64,000 nucleotides of DNA, taken from assembly GCA_903813345.2 (NCBI GenBank), contig CAIIXF020000003.1:27235248-27299247 (forward strand). Direction: 5' to 3'. Position 1 is the stretch's first letter. Each line of letters opens with the position of its first letter. Source of the DNA: Owenia fusiformis (Eukaryota > Annelida > Polychaeta > Sabellida > Oweniidae). Of this stretch, positions 23,101 to 51,500 are shown piece after piece. A program made the translations under genes and the position numbers. The notes beneath the pieces are model-generated. The model saw only the letters and a program-made list of their open reading frames with translations, had not been told where the DNA came from and made no database searches.

Positions 23101-26100
23101 GGAATATTTTTCCAAGTATGAATCATAGAGTAAATGGATCAAGAATATTGCTTGAAAAGTTAGGGATGAATACATAATGTACATGTACTGATTAATGAAT
23201 TGTCAGAACTGACACTCTTTCCATCTAAGATTTTTCAGAATATTTAGAATATTGAGAATTAAAATGAAATCAATTGAGTGTATTGTCAGAACTGAAACTC
23301 TTTCCATCTAAGATCATTTCAAAATATCTAGAATATTGAGAATTAAAATGAAATCAATTGAGTGTAACTGATGAGTCTGCCAATGCTACCTTTGGTCCAC
23401 ATCTTGCCAGATATGATGAAAATGCCTTTATGGCATGCTCCCTGATGCTCAGCTGTGGGTGTGCCAATAAGGGGTAAATAACAACTTGAATTTGATTGGT
23501 TAAAAATTTTGGCAAGTGTGCTAGCTCCAATTTGCCAAACTTGACTAGATATTCACTCGTTTCTCCCTGATGTAACATTCCAACTGTCTGGAACTTGCGT
23601 ACAACTGTGTTGATGCCTAGAAGAAATAGAAGACCACATTACACGAGACAGTAATCAAAGACCTCATGACAACTTCAGATATAATGGAATAGACAGCACG
23701 GTATGCAGGGGTTGAGCTAAGGTTCTGAGAGCAGCCAGTCAAAATGACATTACGGACCAGTTGCCATGTTATTTTCTGATTCTAACTGGTCCATAACAAA
23801 ATTGACCTATGACCTGGCAAATGACCAGTGGACCAGCCTTTAGCTCAAGCCCTGACCGTTCAGTGCCATTTTAGCTATGGTACTGTACTGTACCATAAAT
23901 ATGGCAGCATTTAGTACCGTAGAATAAAAACATGACAAAATGTCACCACCTAAAACAATTTGGTCAATTTAAAGCAAGATCTAAAGTCAGATTTGAACTT
24001 CTGAGAACATGTAGATGATTTTGAAAAAAAATTAGTCAATTTGAAGCAAGTTGAAAAAAGACCTTTTTGACCTTGAGAAGGTCATTGAAGGTCAAAGGTC
24101 AAATCTAAAGTCAGATTTGAACTTCTGAGAACTTGTAAAGTCAAATTTGAACTTCTGAAAAGATGTAGATGATTTTGTAAAAAAAATTTGGTCAATTTGA
24201 AGCAAGTTGAAAACAGACCTTTTTGACCTTTTTTGACCTTGAGAAGGTCATTAAAGGTCAAATCTAAAGTCAGATTTGAATTTCTGAGAACATGTAGATG
24301 ATTTTAAAAAATAAACTAGTCAATTTGAAGCAAGTTGTAAAAAGACCTTTTTGACCTTTTTTGACCTTGAGAAGGTAATTGAAGGTCAAATGTCAAATCT
24401 AAAGTCAAATCTAAAGTCATATTTGAATTTCTGAGAACATGTAGATGATTTTGAAAAAAAAAATTAGTCAATTTGAAGCAAGATGAAAAAATACCTTTTT
24501 GACCTTTTTTGACATTGAGAAGGTAATTGAAGGTCAAATGTCAAATCTAAAGTCAGATTTGAATTTCTGAGAACATGTAGATGATTTTGAAAAAAAAATT
24601 TAGTCAATTTGAAGCAAGTTGAAAAAAAGACCTTTTTGACCTTTTTTGACTTTGAGAAGGTCATTGAAGGTCAAATGTCAAATCTTAAGTCAAACCTAAA
24701 GTCAGATTTGAATTTCTGAGAACACGTAGATGATTTTGAAAAATTTTTTTAGTCAATTTGAAGCAAGTTGAAAACAGACCTTTTTGACCTTTTTTGACCT
24801 TGAGAAGGTCATTGAAGGTCAAATCTTAAGTCAAATCTTAAGTCAGATTTGAATTTCTGAGAACCCGTAGATGATTTAAAAAAAAAATTTAGTCAATTTG
24901 AAGCAAGTTGAAAACAGACCTTTTTGACCTTTTTTGACCTTGAGAAGGTCATTGAAGGTCAAATGTCAAATCTAAAGTCAGATTTGAAGGTCAAATGTCA
25001 AATCTAAAGTCAAATCTAAAGTCAGATTTGAATTTCTGAGAACATGTAGATGATTTTGAAAAAAAATTTAGTCAATGTGAAGCAAGTTGAAAAAATACCT
25101 TTTTGACCTTGAGAAGGTCATTGAAGGTCAAATGTCAAATCTAAAGTCAGATTTGAACTTCTGAGAACATGTAGATGGTTTAGAAAAAAATTGAAGTCAA
25201 TCTAAACAGTATTTGTTAAGTTATAGGAAGTTGTAAGAAATTGTTACAGACGCCGGACGCCAACCTCCAACCACCAACCGCCGTCGCAAAAAAACGGAGA
25301 CCATAACAATATGTCACCACTTTTGGTGGTGACATAAAAAAACGGAGACCATAACAATATGTCACCACTTTTGGTGGTGACATAATAAAAAAAAACGGAG
25401 ACCATAACAATATGTCACCACTTTTGGTGGTGACATAATAAAAAAAAACGGAGACCATAACAATATGTCACCACTTTTGGTGGTGACATAATAACAGTAC
25501 TCACACTACCCTACCTAGGTAGTGCATGCGCGAATTTTTTGGCTTTCAATCAGGTCGCTTCTGAGTATATCGACTGCTTAGTGAAAAGGTTAATACGTTT
25601 GGTGCTTTGAGTGAGTCAATATTGCTATTCGCTGAACTTCAGTGGTGCAATAGTGAAGTCCATGTTCCAAGTTATATGATAGTTGAAGAAAGAATGTAAA
25701 TAATATCGTTTTAAATTTTAAAATATTTGATATGTCATAGTACACGGTACGCAGCTGCAAAAGTTGATCAATACAGGGTACAAGGAATGTAAATTGTTCA
25801 ATAGTACAGGGAGCGAGAAAGTAAGCTGATTATACAGACAAACTACAGTGAAAATAATGCTAAAAAGGCCGCCTGTTGATGCTTTGAGGTGTCATCAATT
25901 GTTATTTAATCCAAATAAAGTAAACATTATTTAGTAGATTTAGACACGGGCTTTCAGGTCGTATATGCATTTTAGTCATTAAATTAACAAGAACGCTAGA
26001 TTATACGTGTTACTAGGGTATCAGATTGAAATAAAATAACGAAATTAAATATGAACACGTAAGTGATAAATGACTATCGGCTATCAGGATTAATGACTAT

Positions 26101-32100: not shown

Positions 32101-35100
32101 CAAATCTGAAGTACCAGTATTATATGAAATAACCATTCTTCCTTTTTAGTTCAATAAAGGCTACTGAAGTGAACATAATGGTTGTACCTGCAGAAAAATG
32201 ACATGCGATGGTCATGTTTTTTGAGTTCTAAAAATTAAAAAATTAAAATAGATGGATCGGTTCAGAATAAATTTTAGTTGTAAAGTCAATATTAATTATG
32301 CAGAAATACTATCAAGTCCATTCAAACCTTAAAAAGAAATTGATGTTATAAGTATTGAGCAGACAGATTTGTATTGATTTTCACTACATCCTATGATCAT
32401 AAAGTAGGAATGTGATACCTTTTTGTGACTTATCTACCACTTATAATATGAATCAGTGATCTCCCCATGTCACTTTTACCGGGGGCTCCCCCTACTTGAA
32501 ACCAAAGGTCCCCCAGTTGGCACCCAGTTGGAATCTCCACTTCAACTTCTGATTTGAAAAATGAGTGAAGTAAGCACCTACACTGAGATATTGTGAGCGT
32601 AGCGAGTGCTGATTTTTTCAGACTTGAAATCTTGCACCAAGTTGAAAATTTCTTTTGGGGAGAACACTGTGAATCAAAGGAAAAATATCAATATTTTCTT
32701 CTTATCCCAGGATCTTTGCATTTGAGTATGAGGCTTAAAAAATAGTAACACAGTAAAGTAAAACCTGTGTATAATATTGAACATTTTTAACGAGACAAAA
32801 GCATTCAGTGTTGGTAGGTGTTCACTGTATTTCAATACATAGATTCTGATAGTCATCACATCTTTCTGTTTCACTAGCAACATGTAACTAAGAAGAAATG
32901 AAATGGAATGGCATGTTTTATTAAGTTGGGGTGATAAAATAAATGCAATACCCCATTCAACTATTTCTACACAAAAATTACAATCGTAATAACCTCCCAA
33001 GTTAGATCTATTAAAACATAATATTTAACGGAATTGTATGTCATAGCGTTGATTTAGCTTGCTATTACTTCCTTTCATCAATACTTTATCTGATCCTTTA
33101 TATAAATAATTATTGAATAACTTTTAAAGATTACTAACCAAATGTAAGTCAACCAAGATTATTGCCATTTTCATTTCAGAACAGAAAATAGAAAATTACT
33201 TTAACTGGTACAGTAGATATCGATATATGTAACTTAGCCTAGATAAAATAATATTAGCAAACCTTCTTAGGTGCCCTATGGCAACAGATACTAAATAATT
33301 CATTCTACAGTATAGATATTTTTTCCAATAAAAGTAAAAGATTCATGTAACATGAGTAATTGACAGTAAAAACTAGGGATGTCACGGTTTCCAATATTAT
33401 CCCGTTACTCTGGACTTTGGTCTCGGCACGGGACGGGACAACCCGCTTGTACCGAAGATTTCGGTCCATGTTCAGGATATGTATACTATTTCTCCTATAT
33501 ATGACCCCTAAAACTTCCCAAATGCACGATAAATATGATCTAAACTAGAATTTTCTTTTGTTTTTTTCAATTTATCTGCCGGAGTGCGTTCAAGCCTAAA
33601 TGTCATCAAGTGGCAACTAGAAAAACAGCAACTCCACGGAGTAGCAAATCCCACCGAACGGCAGTTGAGTTACCAAAGATTACGAAAATGAAAATGAAAA
33701 ATGGCAGCCATTCTGAAGCCTCTGAAGATCAGCCGCCATCTTAAAATTTTTTCTAAAACAGAGCTACTGAGTTTTTAGGCATCAGCATATAAAATTTGAA
33801 CCGAATCTGTTCACTGGTATTTGACTTATCAAAGATTACGTTTTTTCTTATGAAAAATGGCTACCATTTTGAAATTCAGCCGCCATCTTGAAAAAATTTT
33901 CTCGAACAGATCTACTGTGTCCCTAGGAATCATCATATAAAAAATGAGCCAAATCTGTTCACTGGTATTTGAGTTATCAAAGATTACGTTTTTTTACGAA
34001 AAATGGCGTCCATTTTGAAATTCAGCCGCCATCTTGAAAATTCTTTCTTGAACAGATCTCCTTTGTCCCTAGGCATCATCATATAAAATTTGAGCCAAAT
34101 CCGTTCACTGGTATTTGAGTAATCAAAGATTACCTTTTTTTATGAAAAATGGCTGCAATTTTGAATATCAGGCTGCCATCTTGAAAATTCTTTCTCGAAC
34201 AGATCTATTGTGTCCCTAGGCATTATCATATAAAATTTGAACCAAATCCGTTCATTGGTATTTGAGTTATCAAAGATTACGTTTTTTTTACGAAAAATGG
34301 CCGCCATTTTGACAATCAGTGGCCATTTCGAAAATCCCATCTTGAGCGAAGCTCCTTTGTCCCTAGGCATAAGCATATAAAATTTGAACCAAATCCGTTC
34401 ACTGGTATTTGAGTTACCAGAGATAATGTTTTTTTACAAAAAATGGCCGCCATTTTGAATTTCAGCGGCCATCTTGAAAATTGTATCTCGAACAGATCTA
34501 CTGTGTCCCTTGGCATCACCATATACAATTTGAACCAAATCCGTTCACTGGTATTTGAGTTATCAAAGATTAAGTTTTTTTACGAAAAATGGCCGCCATT
34601 TTGAAATCTAGCCACCATCTTGAAAATTTTTACTCGAACATATCTACTGTGTCCCTAGGCATCAGCATATAAAATTTTAACCAAATCCGCAAAGTAGTAT
34701 TTGAGCTATTAAAGATTACATTTTTTACGAAAAATGGCCGCCATTTTGACAATCAGTGGCCATTTCGAAAATCCCATCTTGAGCGAAGCTCCTTTGTCCC
34801 TAGGCATAAGCATATAAAATTTGAACCAAATCCGTTCACTGGTATTTGAGTTACCAGAGATAATGTTTTTTTACAAAAAATGGCCGCCATTTTGAATTTC
34901 AGCGGCCATCTTGAAAATTGTATCTCGAACAGATCTACTGTGTCCCTTGGCATCACCATATACAATTTGAACCAAATCCGTTCACTGGTATTTGAGTTAT
35001 CAAAGATTAAGTTTTTTTACGAAAAATGGCCGCCATTTTGAAATCTAGCCACCATCTTGAAAATTTTTACTCGAACATATCTACTGTGTCCCTAGGCATC

Positions 35101-37292
35101 AGCATATAAAATTTTAACCAAATCCGCAAAGTAGTATTTGAGCTATTAAAGATTACATTTTTTACGAAAAATGGCGGCCATTTTGAATTCAGTGGCCATA
35201 TTGAAAATTCCTTCTCGAGCAGAGGTCCTACACCCATAAGGCATAAGCCTATAAAATTTGAATCAAATCCGTGAAACGTTATTTGAGTTATCGCCCGGAC
35301 AAACAGACGGACGGACGGACAAACGGACGGACGGACGGACGGCTTTCCTATATCCCTCTCGAACTTCGTTCGGTGGGATAATTACTATAAGTGATTATAA
35401 GTGAAAATTCAGGACAGAACATGCAGTTTTATCGATAACAGTGTTTCCCTTTGAAATATGCCTTAATTTAAACAATAAAACTTCATTGGCGAGAAAGGTA
35501 ACAACTTCAAATTAACCTCAGATTACATGTACATGTTTTTACGCAACATGCGCAGCCCTCTTATGACATTCAAAAGATCCGCTCTGCTTTAAAGTCCCCA
35601 TCTAAAGTTTAAACCACTTTGGCTTATAGTGTAGTCTTACCCTATGTTATCAAAGTGTGATATGTGAAACTTTTTTTTTAAATTTCAAAAAGTGGTTTTT
35701 GATAGACTTTTTGTTCCAAAATTTGTGAATTTATTTAAAACTAACTTTTAGAGGTCACACATATCTTTTAATTAGCAACAACTCATACCAATACATAGCA
35801 TTCATCCTCACATGTTTTTTGCCGAAAAAATTAAGAAAATCGGTTCATAAATAAGCGAGAAATGAACTTATCAGTGCATGAAAATAGTTCCGAGAAAAAT
35901 GCATTTAAAAATTCTAGTTCTCATAGAAACCAATGGTACAATGATATCTAAAACATAATATATTCTTCCTTTTAACCTGGTTAGACAATCAACATTGGTA
36001 TATTATTGAAGTCTAGCATAATTAGAAAAGATTGACGTCGAAAAAAAAAAATTTCAATTTTTTTCAAAAAGTTTTTGGTACCTTAGTGACATCACTAATG
36101 GTGCAAAATATTTTTGATATGCTAAAACATTGAAGTGGCCCATTAAATATGGCATTTTATTATTGAAATAGTGTGTCCTTTGATAGATCTTTGCATTGGT
36201 GTTAAAAAGATAATCTTTTTCGAAATGCATTTAGAAATATTTGATGATTAAAAAATTTCAACTTTTTTTGAAAAATGGCGGGAAATTTGAATATTTGAGA
36301 AATGAAATGCTCACAACTTTTTTTTCAAAAAAATTTTTTCTTTCAAAAATCTCTTGAATAACTTTTAAGTCATGACAAATAGTAAATGAATGATAAAAAA
36401 ATATTTTCAAACTTTAGACGGGGACTTTAAGCAAACCCGGAAGTAGACGGAAAACTTGTTGAAAGTTGTTGAACTGTTTTAAACTTATTAACTATGTTAT
36501 TGGTTATGTCCCGTCCCGTCATGAAGGTCCGTCCCAAAATGGATAATTCCTGTCCCAAAATAGTTTTGTCCCGTGACATCCCTAGTAAAAACTGTCTTAA
36601 TAAACGCCTCTCACTGGTGAAGACCTGTGTTTAGTGAACACAACTTCAAGACACATTTTACATTGACTCCTGTATAAATTCCCTACTCTGTGATGAACAC
36701 TTACCTACAGTGAACACTTTTTATGGCTCCATAGGTATTCACTACATACAGGTTTTACTGTATTGTTTCTATATAATGGAACAACATGGAGGCATAGACA
36801 TAGTATTACGCTGATTAGAACATGTAATCTCGCAAACAAATTTGTGTATAGCATTTGTTGATGTATCTGTTTCAAAAATGCTCCTTGTTAAACTTACCAT
36901 CTTATGTAGTCATCCAAGAGGTCATTTAGGGTTGTTTTATATTTAACTTCCTTCTGTTTTCCCGACCCGACTTTCTTCCCTCCAACATCTGCTGAAATAA
37001 TGCCAACTTCTGACCAGCCGAACCGCCGCTCAAATAAATAGTGCGTAAACTTATCCAAATCATTTTGGTTCAAGAAAATATCAGTTACTGATTTATCAGG
37101 GAATGGATTGTCATCGTCTGGTGTAGATGCCGCAGTACGAAGCCATTCTTTTTCAAAAATATCTTCGTCGCCTTCCAGGTCAAGGAAAATATCAGAAGGT
37201 GGGATGAGATCTTGACGTAATTTAGATAGATGTAACACTTCTTCCTCACAAGATGTCACCGCTAGTAGCAGCTCTGCTGGGTTATCCATCAT
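2127..37292 (-). CDS. 23-exon gene for a 1226-aa HEAT/ARM-like helical repeat protein, family not recognised
   Basis: Coding exons in transcript order: 37292-36898, 28355-28214, 27733-27581, 27387-27336, 23616-23390, 23041-22856, 22435-22309, 22060-21800, 21515-21341, 15340-15208, 14808-14746, 9780-9704, 7483-7345, 7031-6930, 6490-6305, 5854-5672, 4906-4712, 4390-4236, 3855-3711, 3498-3379, 3149-3035, 2892-2705, 2288-2127. Each pair is bounded by AG and GT, phases match at every junction, and the total is 3681 nt ending in TGA. The ATG at 37292 is chosen because an in-frame TAA lies 12 bases upstream, after a 3' splice site near 37336, so a noncoding 5' exon is likely. Residues 1-131 are acidic. 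About 130-425 and 710-1070 are regular amphipathic helical segments like HEAT/ARM repeats (for example HPQLSIREHAIKAF). About 428-710 is a hydrophilic, Ser/Thr/Arg-rich linker interrupted by a conserved-looking WEWREGRLFAYE segment. The tail (about 1073-1173) is Ser/Asp/Glu-rich with SDWDNWSDDEE, then a short charged helix. No kinase, WD40 or membrane segment is seen. A scaffold role is inferred only from the fold type. Confidence 0.85.
2308..2512. repeat. non-autonomous repeat in the last intron of the HEAT-like gene
   Basis: A roughly 200-bp segment is closely similar to the repeat units of the element at 12756-13604. Shared blocks are 'TTTACCCAG', 'CTCTTGCATCTGTAAAAATT', 'AGCACAAGACAAC' and an end 'AGCACTTTGAATAAGTGCAAT'. 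It fills about half of the intron between the last two coding exons (2289-2704). Confidence 0.6.
3976..4166. repeat. short intronic repeat with GTGGGTGCA / TGCACCCAC blocks
   Basis: The intron between exons 3855-3711 and 4390-4236 holds a segment with repeated GCACCCAC words and an end 'GGAGAACCCTGG'. The end style resembles the dispersed repeat at 32454-32669 and 58990-59202, whose ends are CAGTGATCTCCCC and GGGGAGAACACTG. Probably a hAT-type MITE remnant; boundaries are approximate. Confidence 0.35.
4976..5198. mobile_element. 223-bp TA-flanked MITE (CTGTACTTCTACTTAATTTGG ends)
   Basis: The left end CTGTACTTCTACTTAATTT and the right end AAATTAAGAAGAAGTACAA are imperfect inverted copies, each flanked by TA (4974-4975 and 5199-5200). 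The inner 'CAAATTAAGTAG' words recall the larger family at 29535-30038. A TA target duplication with short inverted ends fits the Tc1/mariner superfamily. It lies in a HEAT-like gene intron and has no coding capacity. Confidence 0.6.
5897..5927. repeat. 31-bp remnant of the CAGGGTG-ended MITE family
   Basis: CAGGGTG and its inverted copy CACCCTG are separated by only 17 bases and flanked by TA on both sides. The ends match those of the elements at 56700-56922 and 62255-62811, so this looks like an extreme deletion derivative of the family. It sits 43 bases upstream, in transcript sense, of HEAT-like gene exon 5854-5672. Confidence 0.5.
7484..9703. other. intron of the HEAT-like gene, no structure recognised
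   Basis: AT-rich intronic DNA of 2.2 kb. Reading frames in it are short and lack matching splice phases. I saw no repeat with definable ends. Confidence 0.6.
11472..11766. repeat. truncated copy of the GTCACCAC-ended element
   Basis: It starts with the family head 'AACAAGGCATTAACATGACA' then AAATGTCACCACC, and contains two degenerate copies of the 'CAGATTTGAA..TCTGAGAAC..GTAGATGATTTT' unit that is amplified at 23931-25200. It ends at 'TGTAAGAATTTGTTACAGAC' without the matching right terminus. It lies in a HEAT-like gene intron. Confidence 0.65.
12756..13604. mobile_element. 849-bp element with inverted ends TATCGCACTTTGAA and internal tandem units
   Basis: Ends TATCGCACTTTGAA (12756) and TTCAAAGTGCGATA (to 13604) are perfect inverted copies. 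Inside are three copies of a unit of about 150-170 bp containing 'AAAATGGCC(G/A)CCA', 'CCTAATCAGA(T)CTTGG' and 'TGCTCTTGCATCTGTAAA'. Near the right end is a C/G-rich stretch of CCCG/CACG words (13517-13558), very unlike the surrounding AT-rich DNA. No transposase frame is present, so it is non-autonomous. It lies in a HEAT-like gene intron. Confidence 0.7.
13605..14745. other. intron segment of the HEAT-like gene, no structure recognised
   Basis: AT-rich DNA between the element ending at 13604 and the coding exon 14808-14746. Short open frames occur on both strands but none has coding features or splice phases that would join the gene. Confidence 0.55.
18053..18170. repeat. GTCACCAC-ended MITE nested in the foldback element
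   Basis: Starts 'ACATGCAAAATGTCACCAC' and ends 'GTGGTGGTGACATA', the inverted-end pattern of the family also found at 25.3, 43.2, 45.6 and 53.6 kb. About 118 bp, non-coding. Confidence 0.6.
19643..20058. mobile_element. 416-bp MITE with ends AGATGCGAGTAG / CTACTCGTATCT
   Basis: Short inverted ends enclose an AT-rich, non-coding interior. A second copy of the whole element lies in the same orientation at 61749-62133. The two share long blocks such as 'AATAACATGGCAGGGTATTA' and 'TTTCAAAGTTGATAAAC', which establishes the family from within the window. Confidence 0.75.
20636..20720. repeat. short inverted repeat ACAAGGTGTCCACT / AGTGGACACCATGTA
   Basis: Inverted ends separated by about 55 bases form a potential hairpin-type mini element in a HEAT-like gene intron. 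The rest of 20230-21340 is unremarkable AT-rich intron. Confidence 0.4.
23201..23366. repeat. 83-bp tandem duplication in an intron
   Basis: The block starting 'TGTCAGAACTGACACTCTTT' at 23201 is repeated from 23284 with a few substitutions, ending 'AAATCAATTGAGTGTA'. It lies just downstream of the donor of exon 23616-23390. Confidence 0.7.
23706..23854. mobile_element. 149-bp MITE with ends CAGGGGTTGAGCTAAGG / TTTAGCTCAAGCCCTG
   Basis: Inverted ends of about 16 bp with a few mismatches enclose a sequence with further inverted words (CCAGT / ACTGG). The CAGGG ends resemble hAT-type elements, but I could not see an 8-bp target duplication. Non-coding, in a HEAT-like gene intron. Confidence 0.6.
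23931..25489. repeat. tandem-repeat-expanded GTCACCAC element
   Basis: The element opens with 'CATGACAAAATGTCACCACC' and closes with 'GGTGGTGACATA'. Its interior has about nine imperfect units of roughly 110-150 bp built on 'GTCAGATTTGAA', 'CTGAGAACATGTAGATGATT', 'GTCAATTTGAAGCAAGTTGA' and 'CTTTTTGACCTTGAGAAGGT'. The last 200 bp add four copies of a shorter unit (about 58 bp) with 'GGAGACCATAACAATATGTC' and the palindromic 'CACCACTTTTGGTGGTG'. The long open frames here are repeat translations. Confidence 0.8.
25494..26962. mobile_element. 1.47-kb element with 21-bp perfect inverted ends
   Basis: ACAGTACTCACACTACCCTA(C) at 25494 is matched by its exact inverse ending at 26962. No transposase-like frame was found inside, so it is non-autonomous or degraded. 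It abuts the GTCACCAC tandem array on the left with no spacer beyond a few bases, which suggests insertion at or next to that array's end. I could not define a target duplication with confidence. Confidence 0.7.
28403..28702 (-). repeat. tandem copies of the exon-2 splice acceptor and exon start of the HEAT-like gene
   Basis: The true coding exon 28355-28214 begins after a TTTTAG acceptor with codons YLCQTMCSPILEGLRYTIL. Upstream in transcript sense, the acceptor plus about 54 bases of exon start recur with first bases at 28456 and 28599, and a decayed copy lies at about 28647-28702. The first two keep an AG acceptor and the same reading frame, then run into intron sequence and a stop. They are best read as tandem duplications of an intron/exon junction, not as additional constitutive exons. 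Confidence 0.8.
29535..30038. mobile_element. 504-bp TA-flanked MITE (CTGTAGATTGGGTTAATTTGG family)
   Basis: Near-perfect inverted ends CTGTAGATTGGGTTAATTTGG and AAATTAACCCAATCTACAG are flanked by TA (29533-29534, 30039-30040). Sub-terminal words TTGGCG and CGCCAAATT are inverted further inward. It is the minimal version of the element that bounds 16059-20228. The TA target fits Tc1/mariner; there is no coding capacity. Confidence 0.8.
30165..30959. mobile_element. 795-bp element with inverted ends TAGAGAATTTTCGTTATAAG
   Basis: The left end TAGAGAATTTTCGTTATAAG and its exact inverse at the right are followed inward by further imperfect inverted sequence (CTTATACGTATACTTATA). The interior is non-coding and contains two inverted words around 'GACCCTTTAAA' / 'TTTAAAGGGTC'. 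It lies in the long first coding intron of the HEAT-like gene. Confidence 0.7.
31000..32453. other. intron of the HEAT-like gene, no structure recognised
   Basis: AT-rich intronic DNA with short non-coding open frames. A cluster of 'TACTGTA' and 'GGTAC' words near 31715-31815 hints at a decayed palindromic repeat, but ends cannot be set. Confidence 0.5.
32454..32669. mobile_element. 216-bp dispersed repeat with ends CAGTGATCTCCCC / GGGGAGAACACTG
   Basis: Inverted ends CAGTG(A/T)TCTCCCC bound a non-coding segment. A full-length copy in opposite orientation lies at 58990-59202 with the same order of blocks ('TTTTACCGGGGGCTCCCCCT', 'AATGAGTGAAGTAAGCACC'). CAGTG ends are typical of hAT-type elements, but the flanks are too diverged to confirm a target duplication. 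Confidence 0.7.
33374..36584. mobile_element. 3.2-kb hAT-like element with perfect 8-bp target duplication
   Basis: Inverted ends TAGGGATGTCACGG and CCGTGACATCCCTA are flanked by GTAAAAAC at 33366-33373 and 36585-36592, an exact 8-bp duplication as made by hAT transposases. Sub-terminal CGGGACGGGAC / GTCCCGTCCCG words are also inverted. A second member lies at 39730-41425. No intact transposase frame is seen; the interior is largely a nested element with a tandem array (33617-35383) plus AT-rich DNA. Confidence 0.88.
33617..35383. repeat. nested element with ~146-bp tandem array and (GGAC)n tract
   Basis: One end is CTAGAAAAACAGCAACTCCA followed by CGGAGTAGCAAATCCCA; the other is TGGGATAAT preceded by 'CTCGAACTTCGTTCGG'. 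Between them are about 11 units of roughly 146 bp carrying 'AAAATGGCCGCCATTTTGAA', 'TCGAACAGATCTACTGTGTC' and 'AACCAAATCCGTTCACTGG', then a GGAC-rich tract (35294-35342). Blocks 34316-34528 and 34753-34965 are identical, offset by 437 bp (three units), so the array recently expanded by a higher-order step. The same family, inverted, is at 45773-46491, and one end alone is at 59427-59462. Confidence 0.8.
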
Positions 37293-39282: not shown

Positions 39283-42200
39283 ATGGCGACCCCAGGTTCC
39301 GGTGGTGAGAAATTTTTTCAGTTGTTTTTCTTCGATATCTTTGTAGGTCTTGAATATATACGGTTAGATTTTATTTCACACCAATAAGGAGTATTAATTC
39401 TTTGAATTCCTATACAAAATACAAACATCACTCTCTAGTTTGAGCGCCTATTTCACGATTGGCGTTCAATATTTTCTGAATGTCATTCTCATCTCAGATC
39501 TCATTCACTTCAATTCAGTCTTTGACTCTGGAAGATCCAAAATCAAATTATTTGTGTTTGTCTCGATTTTGCTTAGTAATTGTCCTGTGTTTCATACGTC
39601 ATAATATTGATTGTTGAATACGAAAGGTCTATCAGACTTTGGTCTTTCATTGCTTTATGCCATTGTCATTTGAACTTTGTAAATTTATCACTTGCATAGA
39701 CTAAACAGGAAGAGTTTCTTGGAGGCTTGTAGGGATGTCACGGGACAAAAATATTACAGGATGGGAATAATCCATTTCGGGACGGGACATAACCAATAAA
39801 ATAGTTAAGGCGACGCTATATTAAATAAAAAGTACAAAAAATGACTGCCATATTTTTTTGATAGACACATGTTTTTAAAATCTGTTTACCTTGTATATGA
39901 ATTGTGTATCTTGACTAATGAAACATGTCAAAGTTAACATCACACATAAACGCATTTTTCCAAACTATGAATTGGAGGTGCATGGATCCCCAAAGCTAGC
40001 ATGAAGAGTGCGAAGTGAGGCTAATTTTTGAAAGTTTCAAGGAGTAGCCTTGCAACAGTCACACATTTGCAAGAGTCTAAAATTTCCACAAATCATCTTA
40101 CCTTTCCCAGGAACAACGAAGGAGCATGAAAATGTGCACTTCTTGCATTGTTAGAGTATAATAAAGCTCAAACCATTGTAAATTCTAAATATTTCATGTC
40201 TACATTTTGTTTGCCGGAACTACTTCTAGACTTCCTGATTAATCCTCATGAAAGTTTTGTGACTACACCAAGTGGCATGGATTATCACTTGTATGTTTTA
40301 TCTATTACAGTGTAATTATCATGATAGATACATGATAGAGGCTTTATGAATGATAAACAATGGAAACATGAATGAAGATAACTCTGGACTAAAAAATAGT
40401 TCCAGGAAACAAAATGGTGGACATGAAATATTTAGAATTCACAATGGTTTGAGCTTTATTATACTTTAACAATGCAAGAAGTACACATTTTCGTGCTCCT
40501 TCGTTGTTCCTTGGTAAGGTAAGACTATATCTGGAAGTTTTGAATTCTTGCAAATGTGTGACTGTTGCAAGGCTACTCCTTGAAACTTTCAAAAAATAGC
40601 CTCACTTCGCACTCTTCATGCTAGCTTTTGGGAGCCATACACCTCCAATTCATAGTTATGAAAAATGCGTTTAAATGTGAGGTTTTCTTTTATGTGTCTC
40701 TTTAGTCAGGAAATGCATTCACATACAAGGAAAACAGTGTACAAAATCTTCTGACTTTATCAAAAAAATATGGCTCCCATGTTTTTGTACTTTTGATTAA
40801 CTTAAATGTCACCTTAATGAGTTTAAAACAGTTCAATAACTTACATTTTCCATCTACTTCCGGTTATACTTATGCATCGTGGATCTTTTGATTGTCATAA
40901 GAGGGCTGCGCATGTTGCGCAAAAACTTGTTATCTGAGATTTATTTTAATTTGTTACCTTTCTCGCCTATGAAGTTCTTGTGTTATTGTTTAAATTAAAG
41001 CATATTTCAAAGGGAAACAGTGCTATCGATTAGTGTTGTCGCGATTAATCGATACATCGTGATATACATTGCTAAAAACCGATTCTGATGAAGCATCGAT
41101 GTCTGAAACAAAACATCAATGTTTTTAAAAAATATAAAATCTGCAAAAAATCACAATTCTTATCTCGTTTTGACGTAAATGTCTTACTTTTGCTCATTGC
41201 TTATTTCATTTTCTAATGTTCTCCAATTTTTTGCTTCAAAAATGTTTTAGCTTGCCAAATTGAACCAATGACCTCCAACTTTTACTTTGTTTGCCCTTCA
41301 CAGTTCCAAGAAGTACGAAGTACTATCACTTATTTGTTGCGTTCTGAACATGGACCGAAACCTTCGGTACACGGGGGTTGTCCCGTCCCGAGACCGGACA
41401 ATATCTGGAAACTGTGACATCCCTAGAGGCTTGGACAATGTTTCTCAAAGTTTATTCATTGTCTGGCCTTAGTCCTTCCAAGATGCAGATGGAATATAAT
41501 TCTCTTGATAATTTCAGAGAATAATCTACTGCAGTCAGATCGTTAATTCTGTAAAGTACTTTGACCCTGAAAAATAAGAAATTTATATGATATTACCATG
41601 TGTCTACTTTCCAGTATGTTATTCAGTAAAATGTTTGGAACTACTTTGAATCTAAAAAATAAACAATCAAAGGACCATATTGAAACAGTATATGTAAAAA
41701 TAGAAACATTTTTACATGGCCTATTTGTATATTTTAGTTGTTTTTGTAGTTTGGCTATCCTATGTGTGTCCTCTTATATTTTGATGCTTCTCTGCCATGT
41801 TAGTTTATTTGGCCATGCAAACTAATGAAGCTATGATTGTAAACAACCACAAATACATGCTCTAACAACGGCGATATAGGTGAATTTTAAAGAAAACAGC
41901 TGCGCTTAGAATGATTCTAACTGAAGTTGTCATCATCAACCTCAGTTAGAGTCATTCTTAGTGAAGCCGTTTTCTTTAAAATTCTCTAATATTGCAGTTG
42001 TGTTTGAGCATTTATTTGTGTTTTTCTACAATCATAGTTTTATTTGTTTGTATGGCGAAACTTTTGGAATCAAGATTCAGCTTAGTTTAGCTGAAATCTG
42101 AGGTTTGTCGAAAATGCAAGAATTTTGACGACCATCTTGAATGACGCTAATTGCAGTTAGAGTCATCCAGCTGTGGAACAGTGCAAATGAGGGTTTGGCT

Positions 42201-44118
42201 AGTATACGTAATTATGATTCATAATTATAATGCCAATCTTCAAGAATTATCCTTGAGCTGTGGTGTGAAAGGTGATTTAAAGGATTGCACATTTCATTGA
42301 CTGAATCATTTGTTATTTCAGTGGTCATACCAAACAGTTTTGTTCAACTGGCAGTGAAAAGAAGGCCAAAATTCACTGTACCATTTGTTATTTCAGTGGT
42401 CATACCAAACAGTTTCGTTCACTGGCAGTGAAAAGAAGGCCAAAATTCACTGTACCATTTGTTATTTCAGTGGTCATACCAAACAGTTTCGTTCACTGGC
42501 AGTGAAAAGAAGGCGAAAGTTCACTATATTATTTGTTATTTCAGTGGTTGTGCCACGCAGTTTTGTGCTGCTAGCAGAGTTAGAAAAAGGCCAATGCCCG
42601 ACAGACTTCTCCTCAGTGAGTTGGGGTCTGGAACAGGCTGAGGACATCAACATGACAAACTGGACTGGAATGATAATCGGACCTCCTAAAGTAAGTAGAA
42701 TGTGAATTTGATCTCAAATTTAAATTCTATATTTCAGTCAGATCTCCCCTGATTATTCTCAACAGGATCCAATACCCAACTTTTCCCAATATTAGTCAAA
42801 ATATATCAATGTTTCATCATTACAGGGTGCAAAATGGGTGGCATTTAAATTTTTAGTTTTCATCAAGTTGCTTTACCCTTTGCTCTCATTCTGGAAAGAT
42901 ATTTTAATTTATGAGTACAGTAAAACTTGTGTATAGTGAACATTTTTTTGCCAAGAAAAAACGTTCACTGTAGGTAGGTGTTCACTAGAGAGAGGGTAAT
43001 TTATACAGAAGTCAGTGGACTATGTGCTTAGGAAGGGTGTCCACTAGGGACAGGTGTTCACTAGAGAGAGGTGTTCACTAAGACAGGTTTTACTGTAGTT
43101 TATTGAGCCCTTGTTCTTATGTTCTGAAAATTGTTGTGAGGATGGTCTGATTTTATGAAAATTCAGAGATAACATCAGAGTAACTTATTTTTATGTCACA
43201 AGTATTATTATCTCCAACTTTCTTATGGATAGTATTTGGCAGTTGATGTCTGTTATAAATGGTAGGTGGTGACATTTTGCATGTTAATACCTTGTTAAAG
43301 CTTTGTCATGTAGGAACTATTTAGGAACTATTTAGAAGTTGAGTAAAGAAGTGAATAAATCTAATGTGAACAATGAATTATATCTTTGGCTTATTCTGCT
43401 TGTTTTTATTTTTGCAGTCACCATATGAGAACAGAATCTACAATCTAAAGATTATATGTGGTGAAAATTATCCAGAAATGCCACCAAAAGCGATGTTTCA
43501 GACCAGAATTAACATGAAGGGTGTAGACAGTCAAGGCAATGTAAGAAGAACATAAGGGATGCTTAAGGCTATAGAATTGCTTCTCGAGTGAATTAAAACA
43601 ATTCCAGTTTTCAAACTTTCAAAACTCGATGCCCTTGATAAACTTATTTTTTAAACCAATCTGGACTAATGTACCCTTTATTAGAGTTTGTCTCAATTCT
43701 TTTTTAGCAGTCTTTGATCTGGCCTATCATCCAATCAGAATTTGTTGATCTAGCTGATCATCCAATCAGAATTCTATAATAGTCAGTCAATCACAACTTA
43801 AAATTTTCTGCTTCTATGTAGCTTAGATTTGAATCACATTCCAACTTTATAAGTTCAATATGATTTAACTGCATCAAAACTACAATATTTGCAGTAGTCA
43901 GAGGATATTACTAACTGGTCTGGATTCAGGGTAGTAGAACTTATGTATTACTAGTACTCAATTTCTATTTTCAGGTAGATTTCAAGTATTTCTCTTCACT
44001 AGCCAATTGGCAAAGAAAATATAGTATACAATACATATTAACAGAATTACGTCGTGCTATGTCTACAAGAGAGAACAGTAAATTGTCACAACCGCCTGAC
44101 TCTATGTACAATCACTGA
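39283..44118 (+). CDS. UBE2V2: ubiquitin-conjugating enzyme E2 variant, UBE2V/MMS2 type
   Basis: Four coding exons (39283-39304, 42545-42690, 43418-43540, 43975-44118) join in phase to 435 nt, 144 residues, the usual length for UBE2V2/MMS2. Recognisable blocks in order are [74 protein letters not shown] and [20 protein letters not shown]. No E2 catalytic cysteine is present at the usual place, as expected for a UEV. Family members pair with UBC13/UBE2N to build K63-linked ubiquitin chains in DNA-damage tolerance and signalling; UBE2V1 and UBE2V2 cannot be separated here, so the symbol is the closest vertebrate one. The start is supported by MATPGSGVVVPRSF, which aligns with the family N-terminus, and by a good GTGAGA donor. 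Intron 1 (3.2 kb) holds a hAT-like element, a long hairpin and a tandemly duplicated acceptor. Confidence 0.95.
39730..41425. mobile_element. 1.7-kb hAT-like element in UBE2V intron 1, with internal palindrome
   Basis: Ends TAGGGATGTCACGGGAC and GTGACATCCCTA are flanked by GAGGCTTG at 39722-39729 and 41426-41433, an exact 8-bp duplication. It is the same family as 33374-36584, in the opposite orientation judging by shared inner words such as 'AGAGGGCTGCGCATGTTGCG'. Its core is a large inverted repeat: about 39845-40240 is mirrored at about 40390-40800 (for example 'TAATAAAGCTCAAACCATTG' and its inverse). No transposase frame is seen. Confidence 0.88.
41831..42037. repeat. 207-bp hairpin element in UBE2V intron 1
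   Basis: CTATGATTGTA at the left and its inverse TACAATCATAG at the right bound two arms of nearly 100 bp that are imperfect inverses throughout (for example 'GAATTTTAAAGAAAAC' and 'GTTTTCTTTAAAATTC', 'AGAATGATTCTAACT' and 'AGTTAGAGTCATTCT'). The transcribed intron could fold into a long stem. A foldback MITE is the simplest explanation. Confidence 0.75.
42322..42544 (+). repeat. tandem copies of the UBE2V exon-2 acceptor and exon start
   Basis: Three units of 75, 74 and 74 bp each begin directly after a TTATTTCAG acceptor (AG ending at 42321, 42396 and 42470) and abut the real acceptor (AG at 42544). Each unit starts like the true exon: GTGGTCATACCAAACAGTTT versus GTGGTTGTGCCACGCAGTTT, that is VVIPNSFV versus VVVPRSFV. 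The units therefore derive from the exon start plus its acceptor. None can replace the real exon, because the rest of the fold is missing. Confidence 0.85.
42918..43096. mobile_element. 179-bp TA-flanked MITE (CAGTAAAAC...GTTTTACTG)
   Basis: Inverted ends CAGTAAAACTTGTG and GACAGGTTTTACTG are flanked by TA. The inside has several 'GTGTTCACTA' words and their variants. It lies in UBE2V intron 2 and is the intact reference for the split copy at 33363-36762. Partial copies lie near 290-371 and 32749-32830. Confidence 0.7.
43191..43296. repeat. GTCACCAC-family MITE in UBE2V intron 2
   Basis: Starts TTATGTCACAAGTATT and ends 'GTAGGTGGTGACATTTTGCA' then TGTTAATACCTTGTT, which is the inverse of the family head AACAAGGCATTAACATGCA. 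About 106 bp. Confidence 0.6.
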
Positions 44119-48591: not shown

Positions 48592-51500
48592 ATGGTTGGC
48601 CCGAGAAAACTTATTTTGACGATTGGTGCAAATGACATTACCAAATTTAGTTTTGCAATATGTACAATTTTAATGTTGTATGTTTTGCACTTACATTATG
48701 AGAGAGGATTGACAACAGATCAAGGATCTAAGGTAATAAATGTTTTTCAAATATACACAATGGTATGTGAACATAGAAAATGATTTCACTGTTTTTGAAG
48801 AATATAAAATATCAGTATTGCATTATTGGAATAAATGGTCGATCGGTTCCACCTCAAACTTTAGTGACATAATTATGAATTGTTGACTGGTGGCACCTCA
48901 AACTTTAATGACATAATTATGAATTGTTGACTGGTGGCACCTCAAACTTTAGTGACATAATCGTGAATTGTTGACTCGTGCCACCTCATACTTTAATGAC
49001 ATAATTATCATAATGGTTGACAGGAGCCACCTCAAACTTTAGTGACATAATTATGAATGGTTGACAGGAGCCACCTCATACTTTAATGACATAATCGCGA
49101 ATTGTTGACTGATGGCACCTCAAACTTTAGTGACATAATTATAATTGTTGACTGATGGCACCTCAAACTTTAGTGACATAATTATGAATCGTTGACTGCT
49201 GGCACCTCAAACTTTAGTGACATAATCGTGAATTGTTGACTCGTGCCACCTCATACTTTAATGACATAATCATGAATGGTTGACAGGAGCCACCTCAAAC
49301 TTTAGTAACACAATTATGAATGGTTGACTGCTGGCACCTCAAACTCTAGTGACCTAATCGTGAATTGTTGACTCGTGCCACCTCATACTTTAATGACATA
49401 ATCATGAATGGTTGACAGGAGCCACTTAAAACTTTAGTGACATAATGGCGAATGGTTGACCGGTGGGACCTCAAACTTAAGTGACATAATCGTGAATGGT
49501 TGAATGGAGCCACTTCAAACTTAAGTGACATAATCGTGAATGGTTGACTGGTGGCACCTCAAACTAAAGTGACATAATCGTGAATGTTTGACTGGTGGCA
49601 CCTGAAACTTTAGTGACATACTTGTGAATGGTTGACTGGTGGCACCTCATACTAAAGTGACATAATCACGAATGGTTGACTGGTGGCACCTCAAACTAAA
49701 GTGACATAATCGTGAATGGTTGACTGGTGGCACCTGAAACTTAAGTGACATAATCGTGAATGGTTGACTGGTGGCACCTCATACTTAAGTGACATAATCA
49801 TGAATGGTTGACTGGTGGCACCTCAAACTTTAGTGACACAATTATGAATGGTTGACTGCTGGCACCTCAAACTTTAGTGACATAATCGTGAATTGTTGAC
49901 TCGTGCCACCTCATACTTTAATGACATAATCATGAATGGTTGACAGGAGTCACCTCAAACTTTAGTGACATAATGGCGAATGGTTGACCGGTGGGACCTC
50001 AAACTTAAGTGACATAATCGTGAATGGTTGAATGGAGCCACTTCAAACTTAAGTGGCATAATCGTGAATGGTTGACTGGTGGCACCTCAAACTAAAGTGA
50101 CATAATCGTGAATGTTTGACTGGTGGCACCTGAAACTTTAGTGACATACTTGTGAATGGTTGACTGGTGGCACCTCATACTTAAGTGACATAATCACGAA
50201 TGGTTGACTGGTGGCACCTCAAACTAAAGTGACATAATCGTGAATGGTTGACTGGTGGCACCTGAAACTTAAGTGACATAATCGTGAATGGTTGACTGGT
50301 GGCACCTCATACTTAAGTGACATAATCATGAATGGTTGACTGGTGGCACCTCAAACTTAAGTGACATAATCGTGAATGGTTGACTAGTAGCACCTCAAAC
50401 TTAAGTGAAATAATCATGAATGGTTGACTGGTGGCACCACAAACTAAAGTGACATAATCGTGAATGGTTGACTGGTGGCACCTCAAACTTAAGTGACATA
50501 ATCGTGAATTGTTGAATGATTCTATCTCAAACTTAAGTGCCATAATCGTAAATTGTTGACTGATTCCACCTCAAATTTTAGTGACATGATCATGAATGGT
50601 TGACTGGTGGCACCTCAAACTTTAGTGAAATAATTATAAATTGTTGACAGGACATCTCAAAAAGTTATTATGGGTGCATACTGTGCTTCCTCTCTCAAAT
50701 GTACTTAATGTTTTGCTTTGTTATTATAGGTCCAGTACAGAGACCAACGTTCTTGGCAAGTGGCTAGCCAAACCTTCAATTCCACATCAATACATACAGA
50801 GTTATGGTTGCCACAGACAATCCCAGAAATACTTAGAAAGTTAACACTTTTGAGGGATAAGTATAAATATTCAGACGCTGATGTAAAAATGATCATTGAA
50901 ATACTACGATTCGCTAAAGATGAAATGTCCGGCTATATGAGGAAGTCAGGAAGGCCTTACTTTGAGCACTGTATAGGTATTGCAGCCTAGTCAGTTTTAT
51001 GTCATCACTTGTACCAAAGCATTATCAACTCCCCAAACAGAAACGGATGCCAAAGCAGGTCGTTATAATGCTGGCTATAACATGTAGTGACATAAATATG
51101 ACAGTCATTTCCAGTCTAACTGCCTGATCAGTCATATTGTCAATCATGCCTGCTGTAAAATATCAGGAGAAGAAAATGTTTGCTTTTTCAAGTAAAATTG
51201 GCACTAGGGTATTTAGTTGATCACATACCCCATTAGAATCTCTAACAAGAGGCAAAATGAATCAAAATAATATGAGAAATTATAAAACAGATGAAGATTC
51301 CTCAAAACAGGCAGTTTTTATACAACAAACTGAAAAAATTCCCAGTTGCTGATAAAATTGCATAATATTAATGATTTGTAGGTATGGCAGGTTGTCTGCT
51401 TGATGTAGGGGCACCACTTGAACTTGCTTTATCTGGATTGGTCCACTCTGCTTATGTATTTGGGAAACAAGCGCAGGTAGATAGATTTGACTATAACAAT

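Follow-up and report, generated by a model that had tools for sequence, protein, structure and literature searches.

The UBE2V gene and the array before its second exon

The window, that is, the whole 64-kb stretch of DNA that was analyzed, contains a UBE2V (MMS2/UEV) gene, the single UEV found by a search of the 498-Mb assembly (498.3 Mb in total, with the twelve large contigs C1-C12 summing to 477.5 Mb). Its four exons, joined at the acceptor preceding position 42545, encode a product of 144 residues (Table 1). The translation falls into the UQ_con family (E 4.8e-18), has UBE2V2/MMS2 as its best matches in PDB (E 1.3e-47), and is identical to human UBE2V2 at 76 of 138 alignment columns. UEV proteins are recognized by the absence of the catalytic cysteine; reading the translation by eye, we found no Cys in the 25-residue stretch where this residue was looked for. 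The search for UEV genes at E<=1 produced nine matches, three of which are the UBE2V gene itself, and the top one of the remaining six has an E-value of 2.9e-6 (41%). Five of these six were read, and all five resemble other E2s, presumably UBE2K, UBE2N, and further members. The locus was matched once, and no second haplotype or UBE2V paralog with other numbers of units was found in the assembly search. Exon 2 begins shortly 5' of the phenylalanine that contacts Ubc13 (Phe13 in human MMS2).

Table 1. Exons of UBE2V, repeat units upstream of exon 2, and stop codons reached via the upstream acceptors (positions in the window; a slash marks the exon-intron boundary; matrix scores in bits)
Feature	Positions	Strand	Score	Details
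UBE2V exon 1, coding part	39283..39304	+		MATPGSG + 1 nt; donor GTG/GTGAGA
Unit D1	42297..42371	+	9.2	75 nt; 25-nt intron end closing with AG (42320-42321), then ~50 nt resembling exon 2
Unit D2	42372..42445	+	9.6	74 nt; AG at 42395-42396
Unit D3	42446..42519	+	9.6	74 nt; AG at 42469-42470
Intron end and real acceptor	42520..42544	+	10.8	AG at 42543-42544
UBE2V exon 2	42545..42690	+		146 nt; ends GPPK; donor AAA/GTAAGT
UBE2V exon 3	43418..43540	+
UBE2V exon 4, stop codon included	43975..44118	+
Stop codon reached via acceptor 1 or 2	42429..42431	+		259 nt before exon 2 end
Stop codon reached via acceptor 3	42503..42505	+		185 nt before exon 2 end

Four tandem acceptors precede exon 2, as the original prediction had it. 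Their AG dinucleotides end at 42321, 42396, 42470, and 42544, so that the corresponding exon starts are 42322, 42397, 42471, and 42545. These positions agree with the direct-repeat search, in which the copies are spaced by 75, 74, and 74 nt, and with TRF, which reports one array at 42296-42548 (period 74, 3.4 copies, 94% matches, score 434). The sequence TTTGTTATTTCAGTGGT occurs four times in 498 Mb, always inside this array. The spacing and the homology of the three upstream copies (decoys) to exon 2 also bear out the claim that the exon start was repeatedly duplicated. The duplicated part had been described as eight or more codons; the copy is indeed present, and its fuller extent is about 48 nt. 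The local alignment score of decoy D1 with exon 2 is 42, with a best score of 28 in 5000 shuffles, and for the homology past the first eight codons only, the score was reached by 15 of 5000 shuffles. Thus the unit combines ~25 nt from the 3' end of the intron with ~50 nt from the start of the exon.

The copies are not equally related to each other. D2 and D3 are one base shorter than D1 (CAACTGG to CACTGG), and no difference separates the neighboring 74-nt stretches 42347-42420 and 42421-42494. In the acceptor-centered register D2 and D3 differ at two positions; an alignment of D2 with the real boundary has 18 differing columns out of 75. Over a 74-nt reference, the two adjoining inner copies are 100% identical, and the copy reaching the real exon shows 84% identity. 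In the 26-nt acceptor stretch (-21..+5), 22 of 26 nt match the real site in all three decoys; the core of this stretch (-14..+4) is the same in all four copies, whereas the flanks differ. The unchanged core has P 0.003 for a block set beforehand and 0.06 for any run that long; it may hint either at selection keeping the decoys as acceptors or at conversion between the copies. Evidence of selection on the acceptor core is thus suggestive at most.

Strength of the upstream acceptors and consequences of their use

When the donor at 39304/39305 is joined to an upstream acceptor, exon 2 is extended by 223, 148, or 74 nt, none of which is divisible by three, and this recalculation reproduces the frame-breaking extensions given previously. 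Among the four acceptor choices, the full UBE2V frame is obtained from 42545 only. The stop codons reached by the other three (Table 1) lie 185-259 nt upstream of a later junction, the configuration characteristic of a splicing-coupled switch based on nonsense-mediated decay (NMD). By the usual junction rule, transcripts with such early stops would be expected to be NMD targets. The upstream choices are thus predicted to be unproductive, as had been proposed.

The acceptor matrix is based on E2 genes of this genome, in which a heuristic picked 43 candidate acceptors; ten were dropped due to low score or distance, and the other 33 served as controls. Because of this heuristic selection, the scores are approximate. 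The real site scores above 85% of the 33 controls. All three decoys, with scores of 9.2-9.6 bits, exceed the control median of 7.5 bits, and therefore some use of them is likely. Comparable sites are also present elsewhere in the region: a score of at least 9.0 is reached by four AGs beyond the array (41615, 41518, 41750, and 39347), out of 167 that were scored in the interval 39335-42690. No sign of an RNA structure that could hide the decoys was found in the 441-nt region (z -0.56, with 32 of 100 shuffles equally or more stable). The array units contain no GT with at least six of nine donor consensus positions, and Rfam yields nothing at gathering scores within the window.

Acceptor and donor arrays elsewhere in the genome

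The whole assembly was searched for arrays of three copies of the acceptor word TTATTTCAG separated by 58-84 nt. There were 300 matches to this pattern vs 9 to the reversed one, although these counts are rough, because matches overlap and a few long arrays contribute most of them; single words occur 21,566 times vs 11,202 reversed. The first 100 matches comprise 17 distinct arrays including that of UBE2V, and 14 of the other 16 were fetched, leaving aside a long 21-nt repeat near C1:27.17 Mb and the third copy of a locus at C3:15.1 Mb. A further search added three arrays, two of which were fetched and one of which is again a 21-nt repeat (C5:1.94 Mb). Eleven of the 16 fetched arrays run into an open exon, with upstream acceptors numbering between 3 and 11 in the part that was read; the remaining five (L041, L044, L052, L053, and L054) show no exon. 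Judging by the single-word counts, about half of the TTATTTCAG words are probably true acceptors, and hence the 11 of 16 do not point to a clear preference for exons. What they show is that arrays located at exons escape removal.

The frames of these exons were chosen from the sequence as frames open up to a donor. Ten exon translations were tested, of which five pass the Pfam cut-off, three have weaker matches, and two have none. The first group consists of an EF-hand protein (L042), two copies of an M17 peptidase gene (L045 and L046), a TBL1XR1-like WD40 protein (L048), a TPPII (TPP2-like) protein (L051), and a Dpy19 (DPY19-like) protein (L069). The weaker matches are those of L047, similar to AFG3-like protein 2 (PDB E 0.022), of the ankyrin-like L050, where Ank_4 is below its cut-off and only the end of a longer array is seen, and of L043, which resembles C-type-lectin-like chains (PDB E 4e-4). 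L043 is the weakest case, as its copies only weakly resemble the real exon start (102 of 5000 shuffles are as good) and the last copy is 183 nt before the exon. The open exons of L049 and L070 have no protein match. In L070 the exon follows TAATTTCAG and has five upstream acceptors, all out of frame, one of them the same as the real site over 26 nt.

L047 (G000:C3:33837000-33839400, - strand) contains ten 67-bp decoy units, each of which would disrupt the frame or run into a stop. L051 (G000:C4:20166900-20169600) contains 11 upstream acceptors in 93-bp units with one gap of 186. Since the 93-bp unit is open and in frame, use of these acceptors would extend the protein in 31-codon steps.

Real and upstream acceptors were compared at 11 loci, including UBE2V and omitting L045 as a copy of L046. 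The upstream acceptor is the same as the real one over the 26 nt from -21 to +5 in 31 of 68 cases (30 of 63 without L070, and one of five at L070). By locus, the identical sites are 5/5 at L049, 11/11 at L051, 7/8 at L069, 5/10 at L042, 2/5 at L048, and 1/5 at L070; there are none at L043, L046, L047, L050, and UBE2V, though at L047 all ten decoys match the real site at 25 of 26 nt. Thus the local acceptor sequence cannot separate the real site from the decoys at L049, L051, and L069, and at L049 and L051 the separating factor lies outside the -21..+5 stretch. The dominant unit length is divisible by three at 3 of the 11 loci (L048, L051, and L070), which is the chance level and gives no sign of units being kept in frame.

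Similar repeats are found at donors. Arrays of three copies of the donor word AGGTAAGT were matched 530 times vs 297 for the reversed pattern, and single words 19,109 times vs 33,902. Among 18 donor arrays fetched, seven open upstream exons were tested, resulting in three Pfam matches (GFO_IDH_MocA and the MOV-10 beta-barrel above their cut-offs, and Sec5 below) and four without a match. Hence the array process is not specific to acceptors. A particular proneness of acceptors to form arrays was considered and is unsupported, since per single word the donors are not behind in these rough counts. Two long arrays in which AGGTAAGT recurs mostly every 54 bp (C1:442746-443671 in G000) and every 52 bp (C1:2575188-2576699) are possible donor-side boundary minisatellites.

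As a base rate, we considered the E2 genes, where 2 of the 48 exon hits with sequence carry, within 320 nt, a further copy of a 50-nt boundary segment that matches at 60% or higher. Both are tandem copies of each other, and thus such arrays look uncommon per exon. In one E2 gene (L031, G000:C9:13228767-13230724) the last exon is apparently duplicated in tandem, the repeat being 153 nt long, 71% identical, and 182 nt apart, which could possibly provide alternative terminal exons.

Origin and significance of the UBE2V array

Tandem duplications of this kind have been described in amphioxus under the name of mirages. These are minisatellite-like duplications of an intron/exon boundary with splice signals retained in the copies, and the mRNA is spliced normally according to RT-PCR (PMC3087553, PMC3902484). 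They affect Adh3, troponin C, and the globins BflGb6 and BflGb9, and duplications in PGBD5 have been likened to them (PMC3087553, PMC3902484). The UBE2V array likewise consists of tandem copies spanning the boundary, with splice signals in the copies and with the inner copies homogenized to the exclusion of the boundary copy. The amphioxus mirages share these features, having AG/GT signals in many copies, and there, too, both acceptor and donor boundaries are hit. The differences are the gene itself, the unit length (74-75 bp, whereas the units of BflGb6 measure 150-160 bp and those of Adh3 10-72 bp), the genome, which with 12 large contigs in 498 Mb is probably not that of a cephalochordate (amphioxus has 19 chromosomes), and the nature of the evidence, as splicing and haplotype variation are shown in the amphioxus studies, whereas the UBE2V array is described from its sequence. 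Among the titles and opening lines of abstracts that were looked through, no mirage outside amphioxus was recognized.

Since like repeats occur at other exon edges of this genome and the amphioxus mirages are known, the UBE2V array is probably a tolerated repeat rather than a switch. In our opinion, it is very probably an acceptor-side boundary minisatellite, or mirage, that is nearly neutral, with the decoys bypassed and any leakage removed by NMD. Its alignment suggests a tandem duplication of ~75 bp across the boundary, in which ~25 nt come from the 3' end of intron 1 and ~50 nt from the start of exon 2. Upstream of the true exon, this would have placed a decoy acceptor with a decoy exon start. 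The decoy and the true exon start could then have diverged, one decoy losing a single base, and the shortened decoy may have been recopied recently to give the two identical adjoining 74-nt stretches. The simplest history compatible with the copies thus begins with a single older duplication, after which the decoys were recently copied from one another.

From the reading frame we infer that the last site, 42545, is the one used, and since the full frame is obtained from this site only, UBE2V is likely spliced normally despite the copies. The spliceosome would select 42545 because this is the only acceptor to open a well-defined exon, 146 nt long and followed by a good donor. Its local score is also marginally the highest of the four, and this small edge may add to the pairing of exon and donor. 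Occasional use of 42322, 42397, or 42471 would lead to a stop far upstream of the next junction, and such transcripts would be expected to undergo NMD. The array would thus be near-neutral and tolerated in a single-copy gene, as seems to be the case at other exons of the genome.

The original prediction also proposed a different role, in which controlled use of the decoys would divert UBE2V transcripts to decay by alternative splicing coupled to NMD. Such a switch is compatible with the early stops produced by all three upstream choices, with the good scores of the decoys, and with the acceptor core being the longest unchanged block. However, the same kind of array precedes unrelated exons, part of the UBE2V array is of fresh expansion, there is no signal of RNA structure in the folded region, and four other AGs between the donor and the end of exon 2 reach comparable scores of at least 9.0. 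Moreover, the amphioxus arrays are reported as harmless to splicing, and in the opening lines of abstracts such loops are discussed chiefly for splicing factors, to which UBE2V does not belong. We therefore consider the switch unlikely, and the alternative that the prediction itself had named, neutral repeat expansion, fits the data better.

Two further explanations concern the units themselves. If the assembler had collapsed or expanded them, the identical stretches 42347-42420 and 42421-42494 would be the place to expect it, as this is a pattern that assemblers can miscount. Yet similar arrays occur at other loci, and the flanks differ between acceptor 1, acceptors 2 and 3, and the real acceptor, implying at least three distinct boundary copies, so that an artifact is very unlikely. 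The units could also serve as micro-exons or alternative exon starts extending the N-terminus of UBE2V, given that the decoys still encode VVIPNSFV-like sequence and that unit 1, being 75 nt long, is in frame with unit 2. This is scarcely credible, as the array lacks a GT resembling a donor at six or more of the nine consensus positions and no upstream acceptor, used alone, preserves the frame.

Apart from amphioxus, the tolerated repeat proposed here has several relatives. Zhuo et al. in 2007 reportedly described alternatively spliced introns that arose from tandem arrays; as in UBE2V, tandem copies of a splice boundary are a source of competing sites or new introns, but in that study the alternatives are said to be backed by transcripts. 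In human segmental duplications, internal tandem repeats are noted at exon-intron boundaries; these are likewise tandem boundary copies, and unlike those of UBE2V their alternatives are transcript-supported (PMC2812944). The polyubiquitin gene UBC also contains tandem splice sites in a gene of the ubiquitin system, but its AGGT sites act as both donor and acceptor within coding repeats, whereas in UBE2V each AG is followed by TG rather than GT (PMC10809524).

The UBE2V array could be a particular case of a more general phenomenon. The chances seem to us evenly balanced that boundary minisatellites constitute a genome-wide mutational class in this animal outside the cephalochordates, affecting both acceptors and donors, in which the acceptor nearest the donor is used and as many as 11 identical ones upstream are skipped. 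The choice would then be set from the side of the exon and its donor rather than by the first AG after the branch point, and at L051 alternative acceptors could add 31-residue steps. A single locus of this kind is a curiosity, whereas the genome-wide set amounts to a natural experiment on the choice among identical neighboring acceptors. If this reading is true, RNA-seq at these loci, several of which hold acceptors identical over 26 nt within a single intron, could reveal by what rule the spliceosome picks one of several equal 3' splice sites, how the error rate depends on the number of decoys, and how the gain of a perfect decoy by mutation can be tolerated. It would also extend mirages past the cephalochordates and provide material for the proposal that such boundary duplications seed new introns (PMC3087553).

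Finally, the window contains repeats of other types. A short element in intron 2 (42914-43100) has inverted ends CAGTAAAACTTG ... CAGGTTTTACTG and TA flanks. At least 40 further matches to it exist in the assembly, 39 of them at 98-99% identity among the 40 scored from 2766 first-look candidates, and this level of identity suggests a recently active MITE-like family. A long imperfect inverted repeat was noticed by eye in intron 1 (~39990-40690). Large minisatellites with units of 146/437 bp, 44 bp (41 copies), and 140-285 bp are located at 33723-35292, 48850-50648, and 23979-25024, respectively, and the merged TRF rows cover ~7.9 of the 64 kb.
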